From an uncultured Rhizobiaceae group bacterium (lineage in GTDB: Bacteria; Pseudomonadota; Alphaproteobacteria; Rhizobiales; Rhizobiaceae), in the NCBI GenBank assembly GCA_937951645.1, contig CALFBM010000167.1, positions 1 through 33,136 of the forward strand: DNA of 33,136 bases. The letters run 5' to 3'. This document shows, piece after piece, positions 548 through 13,942 of this stretch. How positions within the stretch are numbered: position 1 is the first letter of the stretch; each line of letters begins with the position of its first letter. The notes beneath the pieces were generated by a model. It was not told the origin of the DNA, searched no databases, and saw only the letters and a program-made list of their open reading frames with translations. The translations under genes were made by a program, and so were the position numbers.

Positions 548-3500
548 TCAAGTGCATCGAGGAACATCCAAAAACACCACCCTGCCATCTGATAAACCAA
601 CTACCAGTGAATTTTTCCATGCCACTGCTCTCGTGGGAAAAGCGTCCAAATAAAGTGAGCTTATGAAATTTTCATTTTCAATATTCCAAAAAGATACTTC
701 ATTGTCATATGACAAGATCACTAGAACTCCGGCACCATCAAAAATTAAAAAGTCATTTGCAGTATGGTGCGTTCTGTTCGGGGGAATCAGATTTTTTCCG
801 TTGATGAATACTTCTCCTTTTAGGTTCAAACAAACGGTCTTGTCGCTTCTGACATCTAGTTGTTCTTTGGGGGCATGGAGAGTGCGACCGAGCAAATTTC
901 GATAATTCTCAAAATTCATTCCATTTAGATAAAATGCACAATCGATATATCTGCAAAACATAAACATGCTGCTTTTTGATGTTCGTACATCAGATTTCCT
1001 ATATGCACGAATAAAGCGACCGTTGACTCCATCATGCAGATTGAAGCAACCGTCCTCCAGAGCAATCAAAAAATATTCTGATTTGAGTGTAAAGCATACT
1101 TCAATCACTCTTTTTTCACCGGTATCCAATTCAGTAATATGACTACCCGTATGGCCATTCCATAAGTGATTTTCTGGAAAGCTTGTCCTTGTATAGGTGA
1201 TTAAGCGTTCGGCTTGTGGAGAGAATCTGCCTCTCGGGTACTGATTGTGATATCCTAGGCATTTGACATACCTTCCGGTGTTTCCATTCCACAACGTTAC
1301 CTTTCTGTCAGTAGAAATTGTTAATCTACTGCCATCCATCGAAAATGCTGAATTCATAACCGGACTATCTTGAGCCCTAAAAGTTTTGATAGGAGAATAA
1401 GTTTTTCTATCCCATAAAACAGCGGTGCCATCACTAGAACCAGACCAAACACGTTTACCGCTCGTAGAACAATTCACATGGAAAACGTAATTTTTATGAG
1501 GTTTTGTTTCTTTTAGTCTGTTCCCATCAAGTTTCCAAACCCTAACTACATCATCTAGGGACGAAGTTATAAAATATCTGGAGTCTGATGAAAAACATCC
1601 AGAAACAACCATACGCTTATCGGATTTGAAAGTTTTTCGGATAACCCCTGTATCAGCATCCCAGATACAAGCAGTCTTATCATGAGAAGCTGTAGCGAAA
1701 AATTGCCCATTTGGTGAAAAACTAATGGAATTTATATGCTTACTGTGAAAATTACTAGAGTTTATTAGTGTTCCATTTCGTGCACATAATAGATGAATTT
1801 TGTGCGTGTAATAATATGGTGCGACAATTCTCTTAGAGTCTGGTGAAAAAATAATGTCATCTATTCTGATATTGCTATCAGATAATTCTTTTATTTTTGC
1901 ATAATCTGTGGTGCTCCAGAGAAAAACGCTTCCGTCTTCAGTTTGAGTGATTATACGACTGCCATCTGGTGAGATGATAGCTCGAGTAACCGAAGCTGAG
2001 TGTTTCAACCGAGCCAGCAGGGGTTCTTTGGAATTTACATCACAAACTATTGTTGTTTTGTCAGATGACGCGGTGATAATGGTATTGTCACTTGGAGATA
2101 TAGTTATGCTATTTATTTGACCATTATGATTATTAAACAGTCTAAGCGTCTTGCCGGTAACAGCGCTCCAAAGGGTTACTGTATTTTTTGTTAATGCTAT
2201 TGCAAGAAACCAACTATCAGCAGAGAAGCAAAATGGTGCAAATTTATTGCCCCTGATTTTGGCCGATGAAATTAATTCTGCACTTTCGCTATCCCATAAA
2301 CAAAAACTCTTATTTTCTGATATTGTGACAAAGCGACTACTATCTGGCGAGAAATAAACCCTGCTTTTATCAACATAGATATTCTTTGATACATTAAAGT
2401 CTGGCGCTCTACGGATTTCAATATAGCTGTCATTATACGAACATCTTAAAAGTATTTTTTTGTTGGGTGAAAAAACCACATCGTCAAATTTACCACAAAT
2501 AGTTTGTATAGGATTGCCTGTCTCACTATCCCAAATTCGTACTACTTTGTTCGTTTGGATAGTTAGAATTTTCTCCTGTTTCGGTGAAAAAAAAGCATTG
2601 TAAACCGAATTGCCTGGGATAATTCTTAGAAACTCATCACCTATCGGATTGAGGTGAGGTGTCCTAATTACTGGCAGAAAACTCTCATCATTCTTTGCAT
2701 CTTCAAGAAAAGTTTTCAGCCTATCATAAGTCGGTCCGTGCCCTAATATTCCGAACATCTGATGAGCAAATGCCTTAGTCTGTTTCTGCAATGCGGGTAA
2801 AGATAGCTGGATTGTACGCCCGATATCCCTTGCATCGGAGCGTTTTGGAAATGGGATGTATGAACGGTGCAGCTGAGTGATACCAACGACATGAAGTTTT
2901 GCTTTCAGCCATTGAAAGTCGGTCCGAAGATCATCCGCTTCATCTTGTAGGCCTTGCGCCTCAAGATGATACAGTAGATGTTTCCAACCATATTGATGCG
3001 ACCGAGAAAGGGTCTCCCATCCGTCAGTACAATGAATCTTAATTGAATCCGTCAGCTTTACATGCAGAAATTTCAATCCATCTGGTCTGTGATTTTTTCT
3101 GAAATAGGACAAAAAGACATCATGAATTCTGATTGTTTTGTTTTCCAGATTGCATTCTCGGAAGAAGGATAGATCATTTAGCCTATTGCGAATTGTAACC
3201 GCACGGTTTTGGTCTATTCTGGCTTCTCCAGTCTCGTCCTTGGTGAGTTCAATCCAATAGTCCGATAAAACATCAAACGGAATATCTGTATCCTCTGGAA
3301 ACACACCCATTGAAAGTAGTGCTTCTTCGTAGATAGGCCTTGGATTTCCTGAAACACGAGGTTTAGGCAATGCCGATAAACCGATACGAACGCAATGTCC
3401 GACAAACTTTCGGCGCAACTCATCCTGCTTTTCACCAACTTCTTCGTCATCCCAACTAGTGAAGTTTTTTTCCTCCACTAATATTTCAAAATCAGAAATG

Positions 3501-4831
3501 GTTTCTTCGAGTCCTTCCCCCGATTTCTGACGATCACGAAAGGTGGCATTTGCTAAGTTTAGCACCAAAGGCCAGCCATCAAACTTTGAAGCGATCTTTA
3601 TTATGCGGTCTTGTTTCTCATGGGGAATATCTTCTAAACCGTAAAGCAGTATTTTTTCTGATAGTCCGTCGGATAGTTCTTTAATTTTGATAGGATGATC
3701 AAATAAACTTCGAAGGCTTTTTTTTCTAGTTGTAGCAACAAGTGCAGCATTTGGAGGAAGATAGTCAATCCATTTAGCTTGATGATGTGCCCATAGGTCA
3801 TCGGCAACAATAAGCATAGGTTTATCTACTGGAAGATAGTTGAACAGGCTTTTTATAGCATCTTCATCATCTCGATAGTCGATTTCAACTTTTGATTTTT
3901 TGCCATCAGTTGACTTGTCGCTAATGTTATATTGCGAACTGAGCATGTTTTGGATTGCGTCACGAACTGAGTTTGTGTTTGTAGCTTGGTCCCCATTGTC
4001 GCTGTCTGGCACCCCAAATTGAAACCAGTAAATTCCGCCAGTAAAGATTTCACGGACACTTGTGTCCTGACAAAATTCTTCAACAAGTGATGTTTTACCA
4101 TAGCCACCTGTGCCATGAACAATTGCTGTTATTCCAACAAAGTTTGAATCTTTATGTGGAAGCAAGCTCTTAAGCTCTCCATATTCTTCACGGTCGGATT
4201 GGTGAGCATCAGTTAGCTTAACTTTTCGAGGATATGTTGGAGTGAGTGTTTCGGAGTGTATTTGGTCGGGTTGAAAAATCGATTCGACGTTGAATAACTT
4301 GTAGAGTTTCTCCTGGCTGCCAAAAGCAGCCTCATCTACGAGTTCCGCGTGGCTAAGGTCATCAACATTATAATGAAGTCGATAATAGAATGCGGCGGCT
4401 AACTTCTTACTACCTGAACCATTTGTTTTTAGTTTTGAGACAAAGTTTGCCAGATCTCGGCGTTCGCCACTTTTTGCATGAAAATCACAATCAGAAGTGG
4501 CGGTCGCTAACTCGTCAATATCAAAAAGCCAAGCTGCCCATAGATCGCTTACACTTTCGTCTTCTTGGGTTGATCTGTGTGAAACTTTGCTTAATGCTTG
4601 GCCAAGTGCTTCTCTGACATCGCAAGCGACACTACCGACCATTTTGCGAACAACGAAGTCCCTAAATGATTCAAAATCAATATTGGCTTTGTATTTCAAA
4701 AGTAGTTTCCAGTTTTCTTTTATAAGATCACTGAAACTTTGGCATAAACTACATGCTTGGCTCAATAGGCGGAATGTTTTGCCAGTGTTTTTCCGTGCCA
4801 TATTCAAAATATCGTGCAGTGATGATTGCAC
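548..4831 (-). CDS. STAND-family protein: uncharacterised N-terminal region, NB-ARC-like P-loop NTPase core, C-terminal WD40 repeat array; candidate defence protein
   Basis: 1,427-aa ORF. Walker A-like GTGGYGKTSL, Walker B-like PMLIVADDLW, ATTR motif after it, then many WD40-type repeats (e.g. INSISFSPNGQFFATASHDKTACIWDADTG). Start may be ATG 4831 or the internal Met (MARKNTGK) at 4801. Confidence 0.9.
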   Translation of the reverse strand: MQSSLHDILNMARKNTGKTFRLLSQACSLCQSFSDLIKENWKLLLKYKANIDFESFRDFVVRKMVGSVACDVREALGQALSKVSHRSTQEDESVSDLWAAWLFDIDELATATSDCDFHAKSGERRDLANFVSKLKTNGSGSKKLAAAFYYRLHYNVDDLSHAELVDEAAFGSQEKLYKLFNVESIFQPDQIHSETLTPTYPRKVKLTDAHQSDREEYGELKSLLPHKDSNFVGITAIVHGTGGYGKTSLVEEFCQDTSVREIFTGGIYWFQFGVPDSDNGDQATNTNSVRDAIQNMLSSQYNISDKSTDGKKSKVEIDYRDDEDAIKSLFNYLPVDKPMLIVADDLWAHHQAKWIDYLPPNAALVATTRKKSLRSLFDHPIKIKELSDGLSEKILLYGLEDIPHEKQDRIIKIASKFDGWPLVLNLANATFRDRQKSGEGLEETISDFEILVEEKNFTSWDDEEVGEKQDELRRKFVGHCVRIGLSALPKPRVSGNPRPIYEEALLSMGVFPEDTDIPFDVLSDYWIELTKDETGEARIDQNRAVTIRNRLNDLSFFRECNLENKTIRIHDVFLSYFRKNHRPDGLKFLHVKLTDSIKIHCTDGWETLSRSHQYGWKHLLYHLEAQGLQDEADDLRTDFQWLKAKLHVVGITQLHRSYIPFPKRSDARDIGRTIQLSLPALQKQTKAFAHQMFGILGHGPTYDRLKTFLEDAKNDESFLPVIRTPHLNPIGDEFLRIIPGNSVYNAFFSPKQEKILTIQTNKVVRIWDSETGNPIQTICGKFDDVVFSPNKKILLRCSYNDSYIEIRRAPDFNVSKNIYVDKSRVYFSPDSSRFVTISENKSFCLWDSESAELISSAKIRGNKFAPFCFSADSWFLAIALTKNTVTLWSAVTGKTLRLFNNHNGQINSITISPSDNTIITASSDKTTIVCDVNSKEPLLARLKHSASVTRAIISPDGSRIITQTEDGSVFLWSTTDYAKIKELSDSNIRIDDIIFSPDSKRIVAPYYYTHKIHLLCARNGTLINSSNFHSKHINSISFSPNGQFFATASHDKTACIWDADTGVIRKTFKSDKRMVVSGCFSSDSRYFITSSLDDVVRVWKLDGNRLKETKPHKNYVFHVNCSTSGKRVWSGSSDGTAVLWDRKTYSPIKTFRAQDSPVMNSAFSMDGSRLTISTDRKVTLWNGNTGRYVKCLGYHNQYPRGRFSPQAERLITYTRTSFPENHLWNGHTGSHITELDTGEKRVIEVCFTLKSEYFLIALEDGCFNLHDGVNGRFIRAYRKSDVRTSKSSMFMFCRYIDCAFYLNGMNFENYRNLLGRTLHAPKEQLDVRSDKTVCLNLKGEVFINGKNLIPPNRTHHTANDFLIFDGAGVLVILSYDNEVSFWNIENENFISSLYLDAFPTRAVAWKNSLVVGLSDGRVVFLDVPRCT

Positions 4832-5156
4832 CAGATGTAGGATTGCGCTCTATAATTGCTGGCTGTCGATTGCCGCGATGACATTTCCCGTGTTCAAAAT
4901 AATTTTCTTCCACATGGATATTATTGGTAGTATTGATTTCTATCAGCGCGGGTTTTCCCACTCGGTGAAACTTACCTTCTTTCCGCCAATAAAGGGACTC
5001 TATGTTGCCCTGTTCATCATAGTGGATTGATGCAGGGCGATCACCAGGTGGTCCTTCACTTTTACCATTTTTCAGCCAGTGTTCTGCTTGAACAAGCCCA
5101 GAGGTGGCGTTGCGAACAAATTTAACTTCAAAACTCTCCTCGATTTCATCATTCAT
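4749..5156 (-). CDS. Small repeat protein (about 3-4 degenerate repeats of the type GxxxxxxYxxxGKxHRxGxPAxIE), overlapping the 5' end of the STAND gene
   Basis: 135-aa ORF on the same strand as and overlapping the STAND gene; internal repeats RPASIHYDEQGNIESLYWRKEGKFHRVGKPALIEI / NNIHVEENYFEHGKCHRGNRQPAIIERNPTSGAIITARYFEYG. Confidence 0.75.
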   Translation of the reverse strand: MNDEIEESFEVKFVRNATSGLVQAEHWLKNGKSEGPPGDRPASIHYDEQGNIESLYWRKEGKFHRVGKPALIEINTTNNIHVEENYFEHGKCHRGNRQPAIIERNPTSGAIITARYFEYGTEKHWQNIPPIEPSM

Positions 5157-5178: not shown

Positions 5179-5215
5179 AAGCTATTTAGGTCAACATTGT
5201 TGACCTAAATAGCTT
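5179..5215. promoter_or_regulatory. Perfect 17-bp inverted repeat with 3-nt spacer, upstream of the 135-aa ORF; candidate operator
   Basis: AAGCTATTTAGGTCAAC-ATT-GTTGACCTAAATAGCTT read directly; 23-59 nt upstream of the 5156 start; no adjacent T-tract. Confidence 0.75.
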
Positions 5216-6090: not shown

Positions 6091-6384
6091 ATGACTGAAA
6101 CTATCACAACGCTACCAGAACCTACAAAGGCAGGTTATTTAAAGGTAGCACTGCTACTCACCCCAGTATTTTCTGTATTGCTTCTAATCTTTGCGTTCAA
6201 GAACTTGGGTCTTGTCTCCAATGATGGTTATGGATATGTGCGACTGGCTGTTCTGGCACTTGCCTCATATACGGTTGCTTATGCGATCTTCAGAATGGCC
6301 ATTGAAAAAGGTGCGGTCTTGGCCGCCGCTGGAATAAGTCAGCTGCAGCACTTAGTCTTGCTTCAACGGCGTTGGTGGGGCTAG
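6091..6384 (+). CDS. Membrane protein, N-terminal part; apparently frameshifted relative to the 6372-7346 ORF
   Basis: 97-aa ORF with two hydrophobic segments (YLKVALLLTPVFSVLLLIFAF, LAVLALASYTVAYAIF); the frame changes near 6335-6340, where the other frame continues SAAALSLASTALVGLAFFAATLPGM. Confidence 0.6.
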   Translation: MTETITTLPEPTKAGYLKVALLLTPVFSVLLLIFAFKNLGLVSNDGYGYVRLAVLALASYTVAYAIFRMAIEKGAVLAAAGISQLQHLVLLQRRWWG

Positions 6385-7346
6385 CATTTTTTGCAGCTAC
6401 GTTGCCAGGTATGATCGTGAGTGAAGTTGAAACCCTTCGCTTGCAGCAATATACTGGGCATCTGGTTAAATACAGCAATCAACGTATTGCAAACTCAGCT
6501 CAGGATGCACGTATTGTGCCTGTCATCAATGCAATTGCCAGTGATCTTCAATCCAAGGCAGTTTGTGAGCGTGAAGAAAGCTGTGTGTCCTTGAGCGAAG
6601 AGATTGGTCTTGGTTCAACGGCACGCACACTTAATACGTTGGTGTCACGCACAAGTTCGATTGCTACGATTGCCCGACAAGGTTTCCAGAACCGTAACAA
6701 TGCCATCGGTCAAGCAAACGCGAGTTTAGCTGCAATTGAAGCTGCCGTTTCTGATGAAGAGACGGTCGCCTCAGACAAACGCAGCATTTTGCGTAAGCAT
6801 AATGCAGAGCTGTCGCAATTACTTGATCAGTTGGATGAAACCATTCCAGTATCAACGCTTGCAGCCTTTGCGCAGGAATTGCGTGGTGGCGTTACCATTC
6901 CAGGCAAGGAAGATGTGTCTTTACGAATTGGACATTTCCTGAATGGTTATGCAGCTGCGCTGGATAAGGTCTTGAGTGAACGTGGCAGCGATGCAGTTGA
7001 ACGCCCTGCATTTCCGTCCAGAACTGCTGTGCCTGAGGCATTGTCACATATGTTGACCTTTGCTCCGGTCGCTTTGTTAACATTCACAATTGATGTGATG
7101 TTTCCATTGACGCTTTGGGCTTTTACATATTGGCAGCAAATCTACGCGCGTTTTGAAGCCAATCCTCGTGCAGGAACCAAGCGTAAAGTCCCTACGGATT
7201 TGGAGCGCTTGACGGAAACCAGCCTTTTGAAACCACAGGCTCCTTCTGGTTCAAGTGAACGTAAGGCTAGCACTCAGAAAACTGCATCATCACGCAGAAC
7301 CAATCGTTCTTCCAAGCGTAGAACCAATAAGGGAGGTCGTTCATGA
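6339..7346 (+). CDS. Membrane protein, C-terminal part (soluble coiled-coil-like domain, further TM segment, strongly basic C-terminal tail)
   Basis: ORF 6372-7346 (annotated start is TTG); hydrophobic segment MLTFAPVALLTFTIDVMFPLTLWAFTYW; tail SERKASTQKTASSRRTNRSSKRRTNKGGRS. Confidence 0.65.
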   Translation, partial: SAAALSLASTALVGLAFFAATLPGMIVSEVETLRLQQYTGHLVKYSNQRIANSAQDARIVPVINAIASDLQSKAVCEREESCVSLSEEIGLGSTARTLNTLVSRTSSIATIARQGFQNRNNAIGQANASLAAIEAAVSDEETVASDKRSILRKHNAELSQLLDQLDETIPVSTLAAFAQELRGGVTIPGKEDVSLRIGHFLNGYAAALDKVLSERGSDAVERPAFPSRTAVPEALSHMLTFAPVALLTFTIDVMFPLTLWAFTYWQQIYARFEANPRAGTKRKVPTDLERLTETSLLKPQAPSGSSERKASTQKTASSRRTNRSSKRRTNKGGRS

Positions 7347-7888
7347 TTGACATGACCTCTTTACCAGTTTCCGGCGGCGTTATCGTCGCCGGGGCTTTGT
7401 GGGTAGGATTATCTGCCTTTGTTCTTGGTCCAGTCGTTGTGGAGCGCAGTGCCGATAAGATGGATTGGTGCGAAACCTGCGAACAGCAGCTTGTTGCAGA
7501 AATCAAGGCACGACAGCCCCTGCCGAGTGCCAAACCAAACCTTGGTTGCGATGATGTAATGAAGCACTTGCCAAAAGAGTATGGTAAAATACTCAATCTC
7601 TTTGGTATGGATGCGGCTTGCAAGATCGTTGACCAGAAAAATGCACAACTCAAGCAAATTGAAGCAATCAAACGCGAGCGTGTGATGCAAGCTGCAGAAC
7701 ATGCAAACTCTCAATGTGAATGTGCGGTTGCACATCTGATTGAGATCAAGCGCTGGTCATTTGCAATGCATGCAGGATCGGCTCGGTTGATTACACCATC
7801 TGGCGTTAGTTACTTGAGTGCTGCTCTTATGGCATCTGCAAAAAGTCCTGAATGCGCACGTCTTACCAGACAAGGAGGTGTGCAATGA
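7343..7888 (+). CDS. Cys-rich hypothetical protein with one N-terminal hydrophobic segment
   Basis: ATGA overlap with the upstream ORF; 181 aa; N-terminal VSGGVIVAGALWVGLSAFVLGPVVV followed by a WCETC motif and five further cysteines. Confidence 0.7.
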   Translation: MIDMTSLPVSGGVIVAGALWVGLSAFVLGPVVVERSADKMDWCETCEQQLVAEIKARQPLPSAKPNLGCDDVMKHLPKEYGKILNLFGMDAACKIVDQKNAQLKQIEAIKRERVMQAAEHANSQCECAVAHLIEIKRWSFAMHAGSARLITPSGVSYLSAALMASAKSPECARLTRQGGVQ

Positions 7889-8265
7889 TCTTTGGCTCTC
7901 TGAATGTCGATAAGGATGCAGTTTACACCCATCGAGATACATATCTGCTTGAAAACGTAAGCGTGATCTCTGTTCGCCGTCCGTTTTTACCAATGGGCAT
8001 TGTTATGACCATTGGCGTTGGTGGCTTCGGGTTTGGGTTTGCTGATCTGCTTTGGTCACATGAAAAACTGCTGATCGCAGGCTTTTGTTGTTTAGGCCTC
8101 GCAATAGGATGGTTCATTGGTCAACTACAGCTTCTAAGTCGCGATCTGCGTGGGTCTGAACTTATGGGCGCAGTTTATGGTTCCTATAGAGAACTAAATC
8201 AAAAACGCTCGGAGATTGCTTCTGCAAAGCGAGCGAATGTACTTGCTGTCTCAAACTCTGGTTGA
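7885..8265 (+). CDS. Small membrane protein (MIFGSLNVDKDAVYTHRDTYLLENVSVISVRR...), resembling DUF6232-type proteins
   Basis: ORF 7852-8265 with likely ATG at 7885 (AGGAGG upstream, ATGA overlap with the preceding gene); two hydrophobic segments. DUF assignment is a weak recollection. Confidence 0.65.
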   Translation: MIFGSLNVDKDAVYTHRDTYLLENVSVISVRRPFLPMGIVMTIGVGGFGFGFADLLWSHEKLLIAGFCCLGLAIGWFIGQLQLLSRDLRGSELMGAVYGSYRELNQKRSEIASAKRANVLAVSNSG

Positions 8266-8320
8266 CTCTTAAACCGCCCAGCATGTGCCTTACAGGTGCA
8301 TGACAATCCGACAAACAGAA

Positions 8321-8360
8321 GAGGCATCCTGCATGACGCAGGATGCCTCTAGCTTTTTTA
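8321..8360 (+). terminator. Rho-independent terminator
   Basis: Perfect 13-bp stem AGAGGCATCCTGC-ATGAC-GCAGGATGCCTCT followed by AGCTTTTTT. Confidence 0.85.
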
Positions 8361-8375
8361 GATCGGAGACTATCT

Positions 8376-8681
8376 ATGACAGAAACCTCATCCGTTAAAC
8401 CCAAGTTGCAGATGGTGGTCCATTTTGCCTTTTCTGGCGTGGCATTCGGACTTGCGTGGTGGCTTTGGCATTTGGGCGGCCATAATCCATGGGCTACCAA
8501 GTTTTTAGGCGGCACACTCGCGATAGGTGGTGTTATCCGCATGGGCAATGGCCTGTTCATCTCAACTGAACTTCTTCTTAAATCCTTGTCCAACCGTAAG
8601 TACAAATCAAAGGTCAAGACGCAAAAGGCAGATTCAACTGTGAGTAGTGCGGAACTCAAAGCGAAGGGATTGATCGAATGA
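8376..8681 (+). CDS. Small membrane protein, probable membrane partner of the downstream VirD4/TraG-like ATPase
   Basis: MTETSSVKPKLQ...; two hydrophobic segments; stop TGA (8679-8681) overlaps ATG (8678) of the ATPase. Confidence 0.65.
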   Translation: MTETSSVKPKLQMVVHFAFSGVAFGLAWWLWHLGGHNPWATKFLGGTLAIGGVIRMGNGLFISTELLLKSLSNRKYKSKVKTQKADSTVSSAELKAKGLIE

Positions 8682-10084
8682 AGCGTTTCTTCAGAAAACA
8701 AAACCGGAAAGTAATTGATCCCAAAGGTCGTCGGATTATTGGTCGTACCAAGGATACGGGTGAAGCCATTTGGGCACCGAAGGGTCATTCGCTAATCCTG
8801 GGCGGAACAGGGGCGGGTAAGTCAACCTGTGTGGGGGCTCCAGCTATTATGTCTTTCATAGCATCTGAGCCAGATAAAGCGGTTTTGGTGCTTGATAATA
8901 AAGATGGTGAATATGCCATTCAGATGGCACGCATGATCGCGGCTAGTGGGCGGAAAGTAGCTATTATCGATGATTTTGTCATATGGGCTGTTTTAGCTCC
9001 GCACAAGATATCACTCAATCCATTTGGCTCGGTTGTGGAAGCTTACAAGAGAGATACGCGCGATGTTATCTTCGCCATGGAGAGTGTGACGCACTCTTTG
9101 ATTGAAGAGCCGAACAATGATGCCAAGAATAAATACTTCCGTGCATGGCCTCGCAATATCATTGAATTTGCCACTATCGCTTTGCTGAAGCGCAATGCTG
9201 ATTTGGCAACGCCGGGTGGGGTTGCAGCACTCGTATCAGACCCGGACATGTTCCGTGGGTTTGCACAGATCGAAGCGGAGGAAGGCGATAAAATCCTGAA
9301 ACCCAGAGCGAAAGCTGTCTTCGACATGATTGGCCATGAACATTGGCCTCAGCATTTAGAGGAATCTACTCGTTCAATGAGGCTCTATAGCCCAGGTATG
9401 AGATTGCATGAGGTTGGGCGCAATGCGAAAATCACGCATCGTGAGTTGATTGAGCAAGGCTATGTGGTGTTCTTGACGGGGCAGCAATCCAAGATGCAAG
9501 CCCTTGGTCCTTATTACGCTAATCATATATTGAGCTTTACCAATGCCATGTTGGAGGGCGCCGGGCCTCTCAGAATACTGGCAGATGAAGTAACTAGTTG
9601 TCCGATTAAACCTCTCATTGAAAAGATTACAATTGTTAGATCATATGGCGGGGAATTTACTCTCATATCTCAATCGATCTCTGACTTCGAACGTAAGTTC
9701 AGCAAAGACCTGACACGCACATTGGTCGATAACTGCACAACGAAACAATGGCTGGGTTTCTCTGAAGAAACAGCGAAACGTGCGAGTGAAGCCATGGGTG
9801 AGGAATATGCTCTTTCCTCATCACTTGGAAGCAATAGCGGGGATACGAAAACTCAAACTAACCTGAGCCTCACCAAGCAACGTGTGATGACTGCCTCGGA
9901 ACTCATGGCTATGCCTAAGGATGAACAACTGGTTCATATTATGGGGGTTGGCTTCTTTGTTTGTAAGAAGATTGGGCAGCAGAATATAGCACCATACTGC
10001 TTTGATATGGATGAGAACCCATTGGAGGGCGGCAAGCTTACACCCGACCCAATGATCACATTGACCAAGCCTGAGGTGCTGTAA
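8678..10084 (+). CDS. VirD4/TraG/TraD-type conjugative coupling ATPase (soluble form)
   Basis: 468 aa; Walker A GGTGAGKST; Walker B-like LRILADEVTS; downstream SQSISDFERKF; conserved layout of type IV coupling proteins; no N-terminal transmembrane segment. Confidence 0.85.
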   Translation: MKRFFRKQNRKVIDPKGRRIIGRTKDTGEAIWAPKGHSLILGGTGAGKSTCVGAPAIMSFIASEPDKAVLVLDNKDGEYAIQMARMIAASGRKVAIIDDFVIWAVLAPHKISLNPFGSVVEAYKRDTRDVIFAMESVTHSLIEEPNNDAKNKYFRAWPRNIIEFATIALLKRNADLATPGGVAALVSDPDMFRGFAQIEAEEGDKILKPRAKAVFDMIGHEHWPQHLEESTRSMRLYSPGMRLHEVGRNAKITHRELIEQGYVVFLTGQQSKMQALGPYYANHILSFTNAMLEGAGPLRILADEVTSCPIKPLIEKITIVRSYGGEFTLISQSISDFERKFSKDLTRTLVDNCTTKQWLGFSEETAKRASEAMGEEYALSSSLGSNSGDTKTQTNLSLTKQRVMTASELMAMPKDEQLVHIMGVGFFVCKKIGQQNIAPYCFDMDENPLEGGKLTPDPMITLTKPEVL

Positions 10085-10152: not shown

Positions 10153-10527
10153 TCAGTGTGTGGTTCGCAGATACTGGCGATCAACCGGATCATAAATGCG
10201 GTTGTTGAGGTTGAACATCTCTGTGAATGCCAACCTTGCCATGGTTTTGATACCCTCAAGGATTTTGGCTTGGGGAACTTTGCCGCTCGTAATCAGCCCG
10301 TCGCAATGCTCACGTTCATCCATACTGAAGACATCGTATGGCGCAACTGCATTCCAGAAGGCAAGATAATTGAGCGGCTCCAGCCACTCAACCACGTCAT
10401 TAATGTTTTCGAAAATCATACCCACGTCACAAGCATACCAGAAGCAGACGTAGTCTGCCAGTTTTGGGAGGTTTACACATGAGCTTAGACACCACGCAAG
10501 CCATTCATGAAGAGTTTCGCAAGGCAA
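10153..10527 (-). CDS. Hypothetical protein convergent to the ATPase gene; start uncertain (TTG 10527 or ATG 10419)
   Basis: ...DVVEWLEPLNYLAFWNAVAPYDVFSMDEREHCDGLITSGKVPQAKILEGIKTMARLAFTEMFNLNNRIYDPVDRQYLRTTH is more protein-like than the opposite-strand ORF; its stop abuts the inverted repeat at 10110-10150. Confidence 0.45.
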   Translation of the reverse strand: MPCETLHEWLAWCLSSCVNLPKLADYVCFWYACDVGMIFENINDVVEWLEPLNYLAFWNAVAPYDVFSMDEREHCDGLITSGKVPQAKILEGIKTMARLAFTEMFNLNNRIYDPVDRQYLRTTH

Positions 10528-11828: not shown

Positions 11829-12311
11829 ATGCCTAAATATAAACCACCGCCACTTAAACAGACGCAGTCTGAACACGACCGATCATTACCTGAGCAATCG
11901 TTGTCTGAACCGGATTTACTGGCTGCTCCTGCCAATGACCATCCTCTCCCCGTAAAGCTCGATTGTTCCAGACCACGTAGCCAACAACCATTCGAGTGGC
12001 AGGACTGGCTTGTCCATCTGGAAGATATCGACGTCACTATGGAGCAGAAGAAAGAACTGATTGAAACCTGGTGGAAGATCATTCTTGTTCTGATTGATCT
12101 TCAATGGGAATGCGAGAGGTCTCTAAAAGACATTACACCTGCATCATCACCATCCATGGAAACAGAGCTGCCAGTGGATAACTCAGCAGAAATATCTGAG
12201 CTTTCCATTGCTCTCCGAGCTGCTGTGATACAATCAGAGTACCGCAACAATCTTAAAATCGAATATCAATCAGCATCTCAAAAGGAGAAGGCCGAAGAGG
12301 AGTCCACATGA
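11829..12311 (+). CDS. Hypothetical protein translationally coupled to the recombinase
   Basis: 160 aa; TAGGAG upstream; ATGA overlap with the recombinase start at 12308. Confidence 0.65.
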   Translation: MPKYKPPPLKQTQSEHDRSLPEQSLSEPDLLAAPANDHPLPVKLDCSRPRSQQPFEWQDWLVHLEDIDVTMEQKKELIETWWKIILVLIDLQWECERSLKDITPASSPSMETELPVDNSAEISELSIALRAAVIQSEYRNNLKIEYQSASQKEKAEEEST

Positions 12312-13857
12312 ACCAGACAAAATTAAAACAGGCTGAACCAGAACACCTGAAGAAGGCGGTTATTTACTGCCGCGTCTCTTCAAAATCCCAGGAGACTGAA
12401 GGCCATGGGCTTGAAAGTCAGGAAACACGCTGCCGTCAACATGCAGTTGCCAAAGGCTATGAAGTAGCTGCTGTCTTTCCTGATACGATTACAGGTGGCG
12501 GAGATTTCATGAAACGTCCTGGCATGGTGGCGCTGCTATCCTTTCTGGATGCGCAACCACATGAGAGTTTTGTCGTCATCTTTGATGATCTTAAACGCTT
12601 TGCCCGTGATCGTGATTTCCATTTTGCCCTGAGAAACGCCTTCCGCGCTCGTGAAGCGGAAATCGAATGCTTGAACTTCAAGTTTGATGACACACCAGAA
12701 GGTGAGTTCATCGAAACCATCATGGCGGCACAAGGACAACTAGAGCGCAAACAAAACGGGAGACAAGTTGCCCAGAAGATGCGCGCCCGCATGGAAAACG
12801 GATACTGGATACACGATGCACCCGTTGGTTACCGTTATGAGACCATCAAAGGCAGAGGAAAACTTCTTGTGTTTGATCCGCCATTTGATGGAATTGTCCG
12901 AGAAGGCATTGAAGGCTATGCCAATGGCCGCTTCCAGTCTCAGGCAGAAGTGAAACGCTTCTTTGAAAGCTTCCCTGACTTTCCGCTTAAACGAACAAAA
13001 CGCGGTGAACTAAGACAGCAACGCATCACCAAGATACTTACCAGTCCAATCTATGCCGGATACATCTGCTCTGAGACATACGACCTTAACTGGCTGGAAG
13101 GCCAGCATGAGGCTCTTATCTCCCTTGAGACCTTTGAAAAAGTACAAGCCCGCCGCAGTGGCATTACCAAGGCACCCAAGCGCAAGAATATAGGTGAACA
13201 CTTTGCCTTACGTGGCATGGTTACCTGCGCTTGTTGTGATACACCGCTATATTCGTCGATCACCAAAGGCAATGGTGGGCATTACCACTATTACCTCTGC
13301 CAGACTAAAACCTGTGATCACTACGGCAAGTCCATCAAGAGAGATAAAATCGAGGGAGATGTGGGTGAACTGATCAAACAATTGCAGCCGACTAGGCATC
13401 ATATAAAGTTCATCACTGCCTTGTTCCGATATGCGTGGGATCATAAACACAATCAGGCAAAGGAAATCATTCAGTCAGGCAAAAGCCAAATAAAGCAGCT
13501 TGAAAAGCAGATTGAAGCCATTCTTACCCGTATCATGGCTACTAGTAATGAAAAGATCATCCAAACATACGAGAATAAGATCGGTGAATTGGAAAAAGAA
13601 AAGCTTCTCATCATTGAAAAACTGCAGAATCAGGTTGAGCCAAAGGGTAGCTTCGAGGAAAAACTAGAACCAGTTCTTCAATTCCTAGCAAACCCTTGGA
13701 AACTATGGGAAAATGGCAACATCCACCTACGCCGTACAGTCCTAAAACTGGCCTTTATGACCCACATTCAATATGATCGTTTTGAAGGTCCTAGAACCCC
13801 ACAAATAGCCTTGCCATTCAAGGCTTTAAGTGCAATTCCACAGGGGCAAGTCTTTAC

Positions 13858-13879
<22 letters not shown>
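12308..13879 (+). CDS. Large serine recombinase/integrase
   Basis: N-terminal resolvase motif AVIYCRVSSKSQETEGHGLESQE; recombinase domain (GYWIHDAPVGYRYE..., ILTSPIYAGYI); zinc-ribbon CACCDTPLYSS...YLCQTKTCDHYG; C-terminal coiled-coil (QIKQLEKQIEAIL...). Confidence 0.95.

Positions 13880-13942
<63 letters not shown>

Follow-up and report, generated by a model that had tools for sequence, protein, structure and literature searches.

Avs (AVAST) systems are built around a STAND NTPase whose C-terminal repeats have been proposed to act as the invader sensor. More widely, cell-death and defence-like systems make use of STAND proteins that bear WD40 or TPR repeats (PMC13174449, PMC13236601). A two-gene layout is found in the EACC1 conflict system, in which a constant small 5' gene is followed by a gene for a protein with a constant N-terminus and a highly variable C-terminus (Kaur et al. 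2020, PMC7159879). We analyzed a stretch of 33,136 nucleotides from an uncultured Rhizobiaceae group bacterium (contig CALFBM010000167.1; hereafter the window) that carries a STAND gene together with a small gene, and compared this locus with related elements in other genomes and with the systems named above.

Architecture of the locus and its carrier element

The initial annotation had described two overlapping minus-strand ORFs, the larger one with a P-loop (GTGGYGKTSL), a Walker B-like LIVADDLW and a long WD40 array, and all of these features were recovered (Table 1). The larger ORF encodes a STAND protein in which an N-terminal domain is followed by an NB-ARC NTPase and then by the WD40 array; the ATG at 4801 is likely its start in preference to the GTG. 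When the N-terminal part of the protein was scanned alone against Pfam, the NTPase matched NB-ARC (PF00931) with an E-value of 2.7e-8 and 33.8 bits against a cut-off of 23.5, and it scored higher than NACHT, which at 15.9 bits was below its cut-off of 26.7. The C-terminal half matched Pfam WD40 with an E-value of 1.8e-34, and we estimate that the array probably has ~14 blades arranged in two propellers. Among solved structures the best relatives were WD40 proteins, including APAF-1 (E 3.8e-35), which was matched via the WD40 part. The only PADLOC match of the STAND protein was HEAT-ARM_XIII, through the repeats, and no NCBIfam model scored above its cut-off. For the first ~215 residues no Pfam family was matched, and the predicted structure of this domain was too poor to use (pLDDT 37.6). 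Pfam recognized neither an effector fold nor a DNA-binding domain in the STAND protein, and gave no match to a caspase or cyclase domain at its N-terminus.

The small ORF is a real gene since it has homologues in other genomes, among them Stappia indica (E 7.8e-16), and since its AlphaFold model reached a pLDDT of 92.8. The model is all beta, without helices. A Foldseek search of BFVD returned a viral MORN repeat protein as the top match (E 6.3e-8, TM 0.68), and the structural matches there were MORN or MORN-variant proteins of giant viruses and tailed phages, while the PDB gave no match at E <1e-3. Pfam (E 0.1), NCBIfam and PADLOC also gave no match, including none to a MORN-type profile. Based on the model, a MORN-like beta repeat fold is predicted confidently; no catalytic motif, transmembrane segment or known toxic fold was recognized in the protein. 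Its length is ~135 aa in the window and in Stappia as compared to 180-235 aa in other loci. The small ORF and the STAND ORF overlap by 53 nt when the latter is read from the ATG and by 83 nt when it is read from the GTG. This overlap is not conserved, because gaps of ~10-76 nt separate the small gene from its partner in the other co-directional loci.

The mobile element that carries the pair spans at least 13.86 kb, and its left border is beyond the contig. The initial annotation had placed the two genes in a mobile element next to a recombinase; the element was confirmed, but the serine recombinase belongs to the same element at a distance of ~7 kb and is not adjacent. The recombinase gene terminates inside the 3' end of a tRNA-Leu gene. 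In same-genus genomes homology resumes at 13858, and in one of them (G919, L053) 56 bp of the tRNA-Leu 3' end are repeated 1.1 kb apart around a short insert; therefore the tRNA-Leu is very probably an attachment site. The carrier thus shows site-specific integration with a recombinase at its border, as an integrative element does. No relaxase was recognized in the window, and the left end of the element lies outside the contig. That the carriers are integrative, mobilizable-type elements of Alphaproteobacteria is part of the explanation we consider best, which as a whole we hold with about even confidence.

Upstream of the small gene lies a divergent gene. Since a related element devoid of the pair has a homologue of this gene, the gene appears from sequence comparison to be associated with the element rather than to be part of the pair. 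Between the two genes sits a perfect palindrome that overlaps the -35 boxes of the small gene's promoter-like site and of a second, divergent one. The genome has no second copy of it, even with up to 2 mismatches allowed, and it is possibly an operator; a conserved regulatory palindrome was rejected, however, since it occurred in the window only and none was present upstream of other small genes. The interval 6091-8681, next to the coupling protein, holds small membrane or unknown genes (6091, 6372, 7343, 7852, 8343), several of which recur in related elements, and those that were scanned had no Pfam match.

Table 1. Positions of the gene pair, its predicted domains and the features of its carrier in the window
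Feature	Position	Strand	Basis or remarks
Small protein, predicted MORN-variant beta-repeat, 135 aa	4749..5156	-	ORF, homologues, AlphaFold, Foldseek
STAND protein gene	548..4831	-	ORF; 1427 aa from GTG, 1417 aa from ATG 4801
N-terminal domain of STAND protein	4160..4801	-	~215 aa; without Pfam match; GSGSKKxAAAxYYRLHY motif
NB-ARC-type NTPase	3480..4160	-	PF00931; Walker A GTGGYGKT, Walker B-like LIVADD
WD40 array	551..2530	-	Pfam WD40 and motif listing
Perfect 37-nt palindrome, 18-nt arms, 1-nt centre	5179..5215	.	Over -35 of two divergent promoter-like sites
Divergent element gene, 197 aa	5317..5910	+	Homologue at L105:14003-14614, E 1.3e-30
VirD4/TraG-like coupling protein of carrier	8678..10084	+	Pfam TraG-D_C, E 6.3e-21
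Large serine recombinase of carrier	12308..13879	+	Pfam Resolvase, E 1.1e-22
tRNA-Leu; 3' end is right border and very probable attachment site	13858..13942	-	Comparison with relatives

Recurrence of the pair on mobile elements

We searched 298 genomes belonging to the same order, using the small protein as query, and obtained matches in five other genomes; in all five the small gene was on a coupling-protein element and adjoined a large gene. In four of them the partner was a STAND protein, whose repeats were Sel1 in Stappia indica, TPR in G021 and ankyrin in both G033 and G145. In the fifth genome (G151, L014:7393-10318) the adjacent partner was a 395-aa gene with no detectable P-loop, followed by a 600-aa ankyrin gene, which is possibly an NTPase-less variant of the module. 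A family profile of the small protein added G444, G300 and G403 in a class-level search and G848 from a phylum sample, all four with the small gene on a coupling-protein element beside a P-loop partner. The reading frame of the partner was split in G444 and G300; in G444 (L032:10466-10509) the STAND frame ends after a T-rich stretch and ankyrin coding resumes at 10509, which could reflect decay, a sequencing slip or a slippery tract. The small gene of G403 was apparently cut between two contigs. Altogether, nine further Alphaproteobacteria mobile elements carried the small gene with the large gene adjacent in nine of nine, a count that refers to element-borne homologues as defined here, with the membership line drawn after the neighbourhoods had been read. 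Eight of the nine partners had a STAND-type P-loop, and their C-termini were Sel1, ankyrin or TPR repeats. The small gene preceded the large gene with an overlap or short gaps in most loci, while in G145 the two genes were divergent rather than co-directional.

Weaker profile or tblastn matches to the small gene that had no STAND neighbour (G489, G581, G790 and plasmids of Frigidibacter and Miltoncostaea) were kept out of the member set, being repeat proteins of a more regular or an unrelated kind. With the exception of the small mobilizable plasmid of Frigidibacter they were not on this kind of coupling-protein element, and the chromosomal and phage-like ones had a different, more regular repeat. 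For these reasons, a generic repeat-protein coincidence as the source of the pairing was rejected. Phage records searched with the small protein of G848 gave no match, and on a Rhizobium plasmid bearing an NB-ARC relative there was no annotated small gene directly upstream. Because the two genes recur together on several mobile-element lineages, the comparisons indicate that the small gene is a genuine conserved partner of the STAND gene and that the pair probably represents two parts of one unnamed immunity-like system. This agrees with the partner role that the initial annotation had suggested for the small repeat gene, and the examination of neighbourhoods for conserved linkage left that suggestion standing.

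We also assembled a control set. The coupling-protein profile found many related elements, and 17 neighbourhoods without the small gene (L090-L106) were read. None of the 17 contained the small gene or a partner NTPase at HMM E 1e-3, and the co-occurrence of small gene and partner had a Fisher P of 2.1e-6, with the elements not fully independent and two of the controls on short contigs. The coupling proteins of the pair-bearing elements fall into four groups, and the pair crosses all four lineages. The G+C content of the pair was 0.40 as compared to 0.47 for the remainder of the element. Sister elements carried other accessory genes: a caspase-like peptidase in the accessory region of the G134 element (L105:14733-15791; Pfam C14, E 6.5e-13) and a complete type I restriction-modification system (hsdR, hsdS, hsdM) in the G098 element (L098:1513-6700). 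Since the controls lack the pair, four coupling-protein lineages are crossed and the sister elements hold other accessory genes, the pair is, as judged from sequence, cargo and not element core, on elements that also bear other defence-type cargo.

Constant and exchanged parts and the proposed mechanism

Pairwise scores showed that the small proteins are mutually similar in all loci. The N-terminal domains of the window and Stappia STAND proteins were 48% identical over the core and shared the GSGSKKxAAAxYYRLHY motif, while their NTPases scored at noise level and their sensors differed (WD40 vs Sel1). G021 and G033, which belong to different coupling-protein groups, were mutual nearest neighbours by small protein as well as by N-terminal domain, and across groups the nearest small gene agreed with the nearest N-terminal domain where the latter was resolved (G021/G033; window/Stappia). 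A two-sequence N-terminal-domain profile built from the window and Stappia gave G021 (E 2e-4) and G403 (E 0.28) as the next-best among 1126 ORFs. The N-terminal domains were recognizably related only among the window, Stappia, G021, G403 and G033, and were near noise elsewhere; over all loci the correlation between small protein and N-terminal domain was not significant (Mantel P 0.22). Scanning with the N-terminal motif found Stappia indica only in the genome collection and no match in the viral contigs. These comparisons suggest, most strongly for part of the set, that the small protein and the N-terminal domain remained linked through exchanges of NTPase and sensor. Since changes of switch and sensor leave the small protein together with the N-terminal domain, it is probably at this output end that the small protein acts.

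What is established for STAND proteins (APAF-1 in PMC13174449, the CARD-NLR-like LypABC in PMC13236601) leads us to regard the repeat array as the probable sensor and the NTPase as the probable switch. The WD40 array would fold over the NB-ARC domain and hold it off until an invader molecule binds the array. Nucleotide exchange would then allow the NB-ARC domains to assemble into a ring, and ring assembly would cluster the N-terminal domains. The small MORN-like protein, probably translated shortly ahead of the STAND protein from a shared transcript, would act at the N-terminal end; most likely it would be a regulator that binds the N-terminal domain and either holds or licenses it. The assembled complex may then harm the cell or the invader, and phages might be among its targets. 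As to the effector and the direction in which the small protein acts, we infer a regulator as the first choice and an effector as the second. We therefore favour, at roughly even chances, a two-gene NLR-like (STAND) conflict module that is exchangeable cargo on Alphaproteobacteria elements, with the small protein at the N-terminal end.

A wider reading, which we advance tentatively and would rate somewhat below an even chance, is that the module exemplifies a so far unnamed class of bacterial NLR systems with a modular build. In this class the MORN-like protein would be the constant partner of an unrecognized conserved N-terminal domain, STAND NTPases (NB-ARC or nSTAND) and sensors (WD40, Sel1, ankyrin, TPR) would be swapped between elements, and the role of the small protein would be that of an NLR output adaptor, guard or bait of a new type. 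If true, the system would be NLR-like and compact, keeping a single small partner fixed while its NTPase and sensor are exchanged freely, and it would raise the testable question of how one small protein serves many switch proteins. A small MORN-variant gene on a coupling-protein element would also be a sequence handle for further unrecognized defence or conflict modules in Alphaproteobacteria.

The absence of a recognized effector domain in the STAND protein led us to consider whether the small protein itself, the part recognizably related in all loci, might be the effector, recruited or released by the assembled STAND N-terminal domains and acting, for example, on membranes. Its MORN-like fold would suit such a role, and some eukaryotic MORN proteins bind lipids. 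This role is nevertheless rather unlikely for a protein that has no recognized catalytic motif, transmembrane segment or known toxic fold. The pair could also be a toxin-antitoxin-like addiction pair that stabilizes the element, the STAND protein being toxic and the small protein silencing it, and the small-then-large order, the overlap or short gaps in most loci and the strict co-occurrence of both genes fit this arrangement. A large protein whose sensor repeats are exchanged does not resemble an ordinary toxin, however, and the divergent arrangement in G145 also speaks against a pair of this kind, which we consider improbable. Still more doubtful is that the STAND protein is an ordinary regulator of element transfer or gene expression, a MalT-like STAND switch with no part in immunity. 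The pair is always on coupling-protein elements, symmetric divergent promoter-like sites and the palindrome lie between it and an element gene, and a CARD-NLR-like system of Caulobacter controls gene transfer agent release (PMC13236601); yet the pair is absent from the 17 related elements, Pfam recognized no DNA-binding domain, and sensor swapping would be expected more of a protein that meets changing targets than of a fixed regulator. Lastly, that the small gene is an element core gene that just adjoins the cargo slot is hardly credible and is largely refuted: its close homologues were indeed confined to these elements in the genomes searched, but it was missing, always together with the partner, from the 17 control elements, whose coupling proteins belong to the same lineages.

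Comparison with described systems

The STAND protein of the favoured two-gene conflict module shows two features of this class, an NB-ARC domain above the curated cut-off with Walker A and B, and C-terminal superstructure-forming repeats. Its domain order (N-terminal domain, NB-ARC, WD40 array) is that of APAF-1, a cell-death sensor of human cells, and other NB-ARC-WD40 STAND proteins, while it differs from APAF-1 in being bacterial, in having an N-terminal domain that is not a recognized CARD or death domain, and in the addition of a small beta-repeat partner gene. LypABC of Caulobacter (PMC13236601) likewise has an NLR-like STAND protein with a repeat C-terminus, encoded in an operon with partner genes in Alphaproteobacteria, but it consists of three genes with other partners, and MORN is absent from the text of that paper. 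Protease or nuclease partner genes of the CARD-NLR type were not recognized as neighbours in the window, where the N-terminal domain model was of low pLDDT. EACC1 (PMC7159879) resembles the module in having a small constant gene on the 5' side and, after it, a gene whose product varies at the C-terminus, but it features a conserved transmembrane helix and a second protein that frequently has a caspase domain, neither of which is present in the module; for the small gene, there was no Pfam match to the EACC1 domain with its transmembrane helix, and the all-beta model has no helices.

C-terminal repeats on a STAND NTPase are common to Avs and the module, and the initial annotation had drawn this likeness. 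PADLOC gave no match to an Avs model, so the comparison holds as analogy only; unlike Avs, the module also has no recognized nuclease or other effector domain and has an extra constant partner gene. It is set apart from bNACHT by the NACHT score, which was below the cut-off. The small protein shares an all-beta repeat fold with MORN-variant and YwqK-like repeat proteins but differs from them in having no Pfam or NCBIfam match and in being the partner of a STAND gene. No paper on a MORN-like partner of a STAND protein was found in the literature searched, which is weak evidence, and no searched library names the pairing. By the features tested, the module appears to be built like an NLR and is distinct from Avs, bNACHT and EACC1, and what is new here is the constant small partner of a STAND protein.
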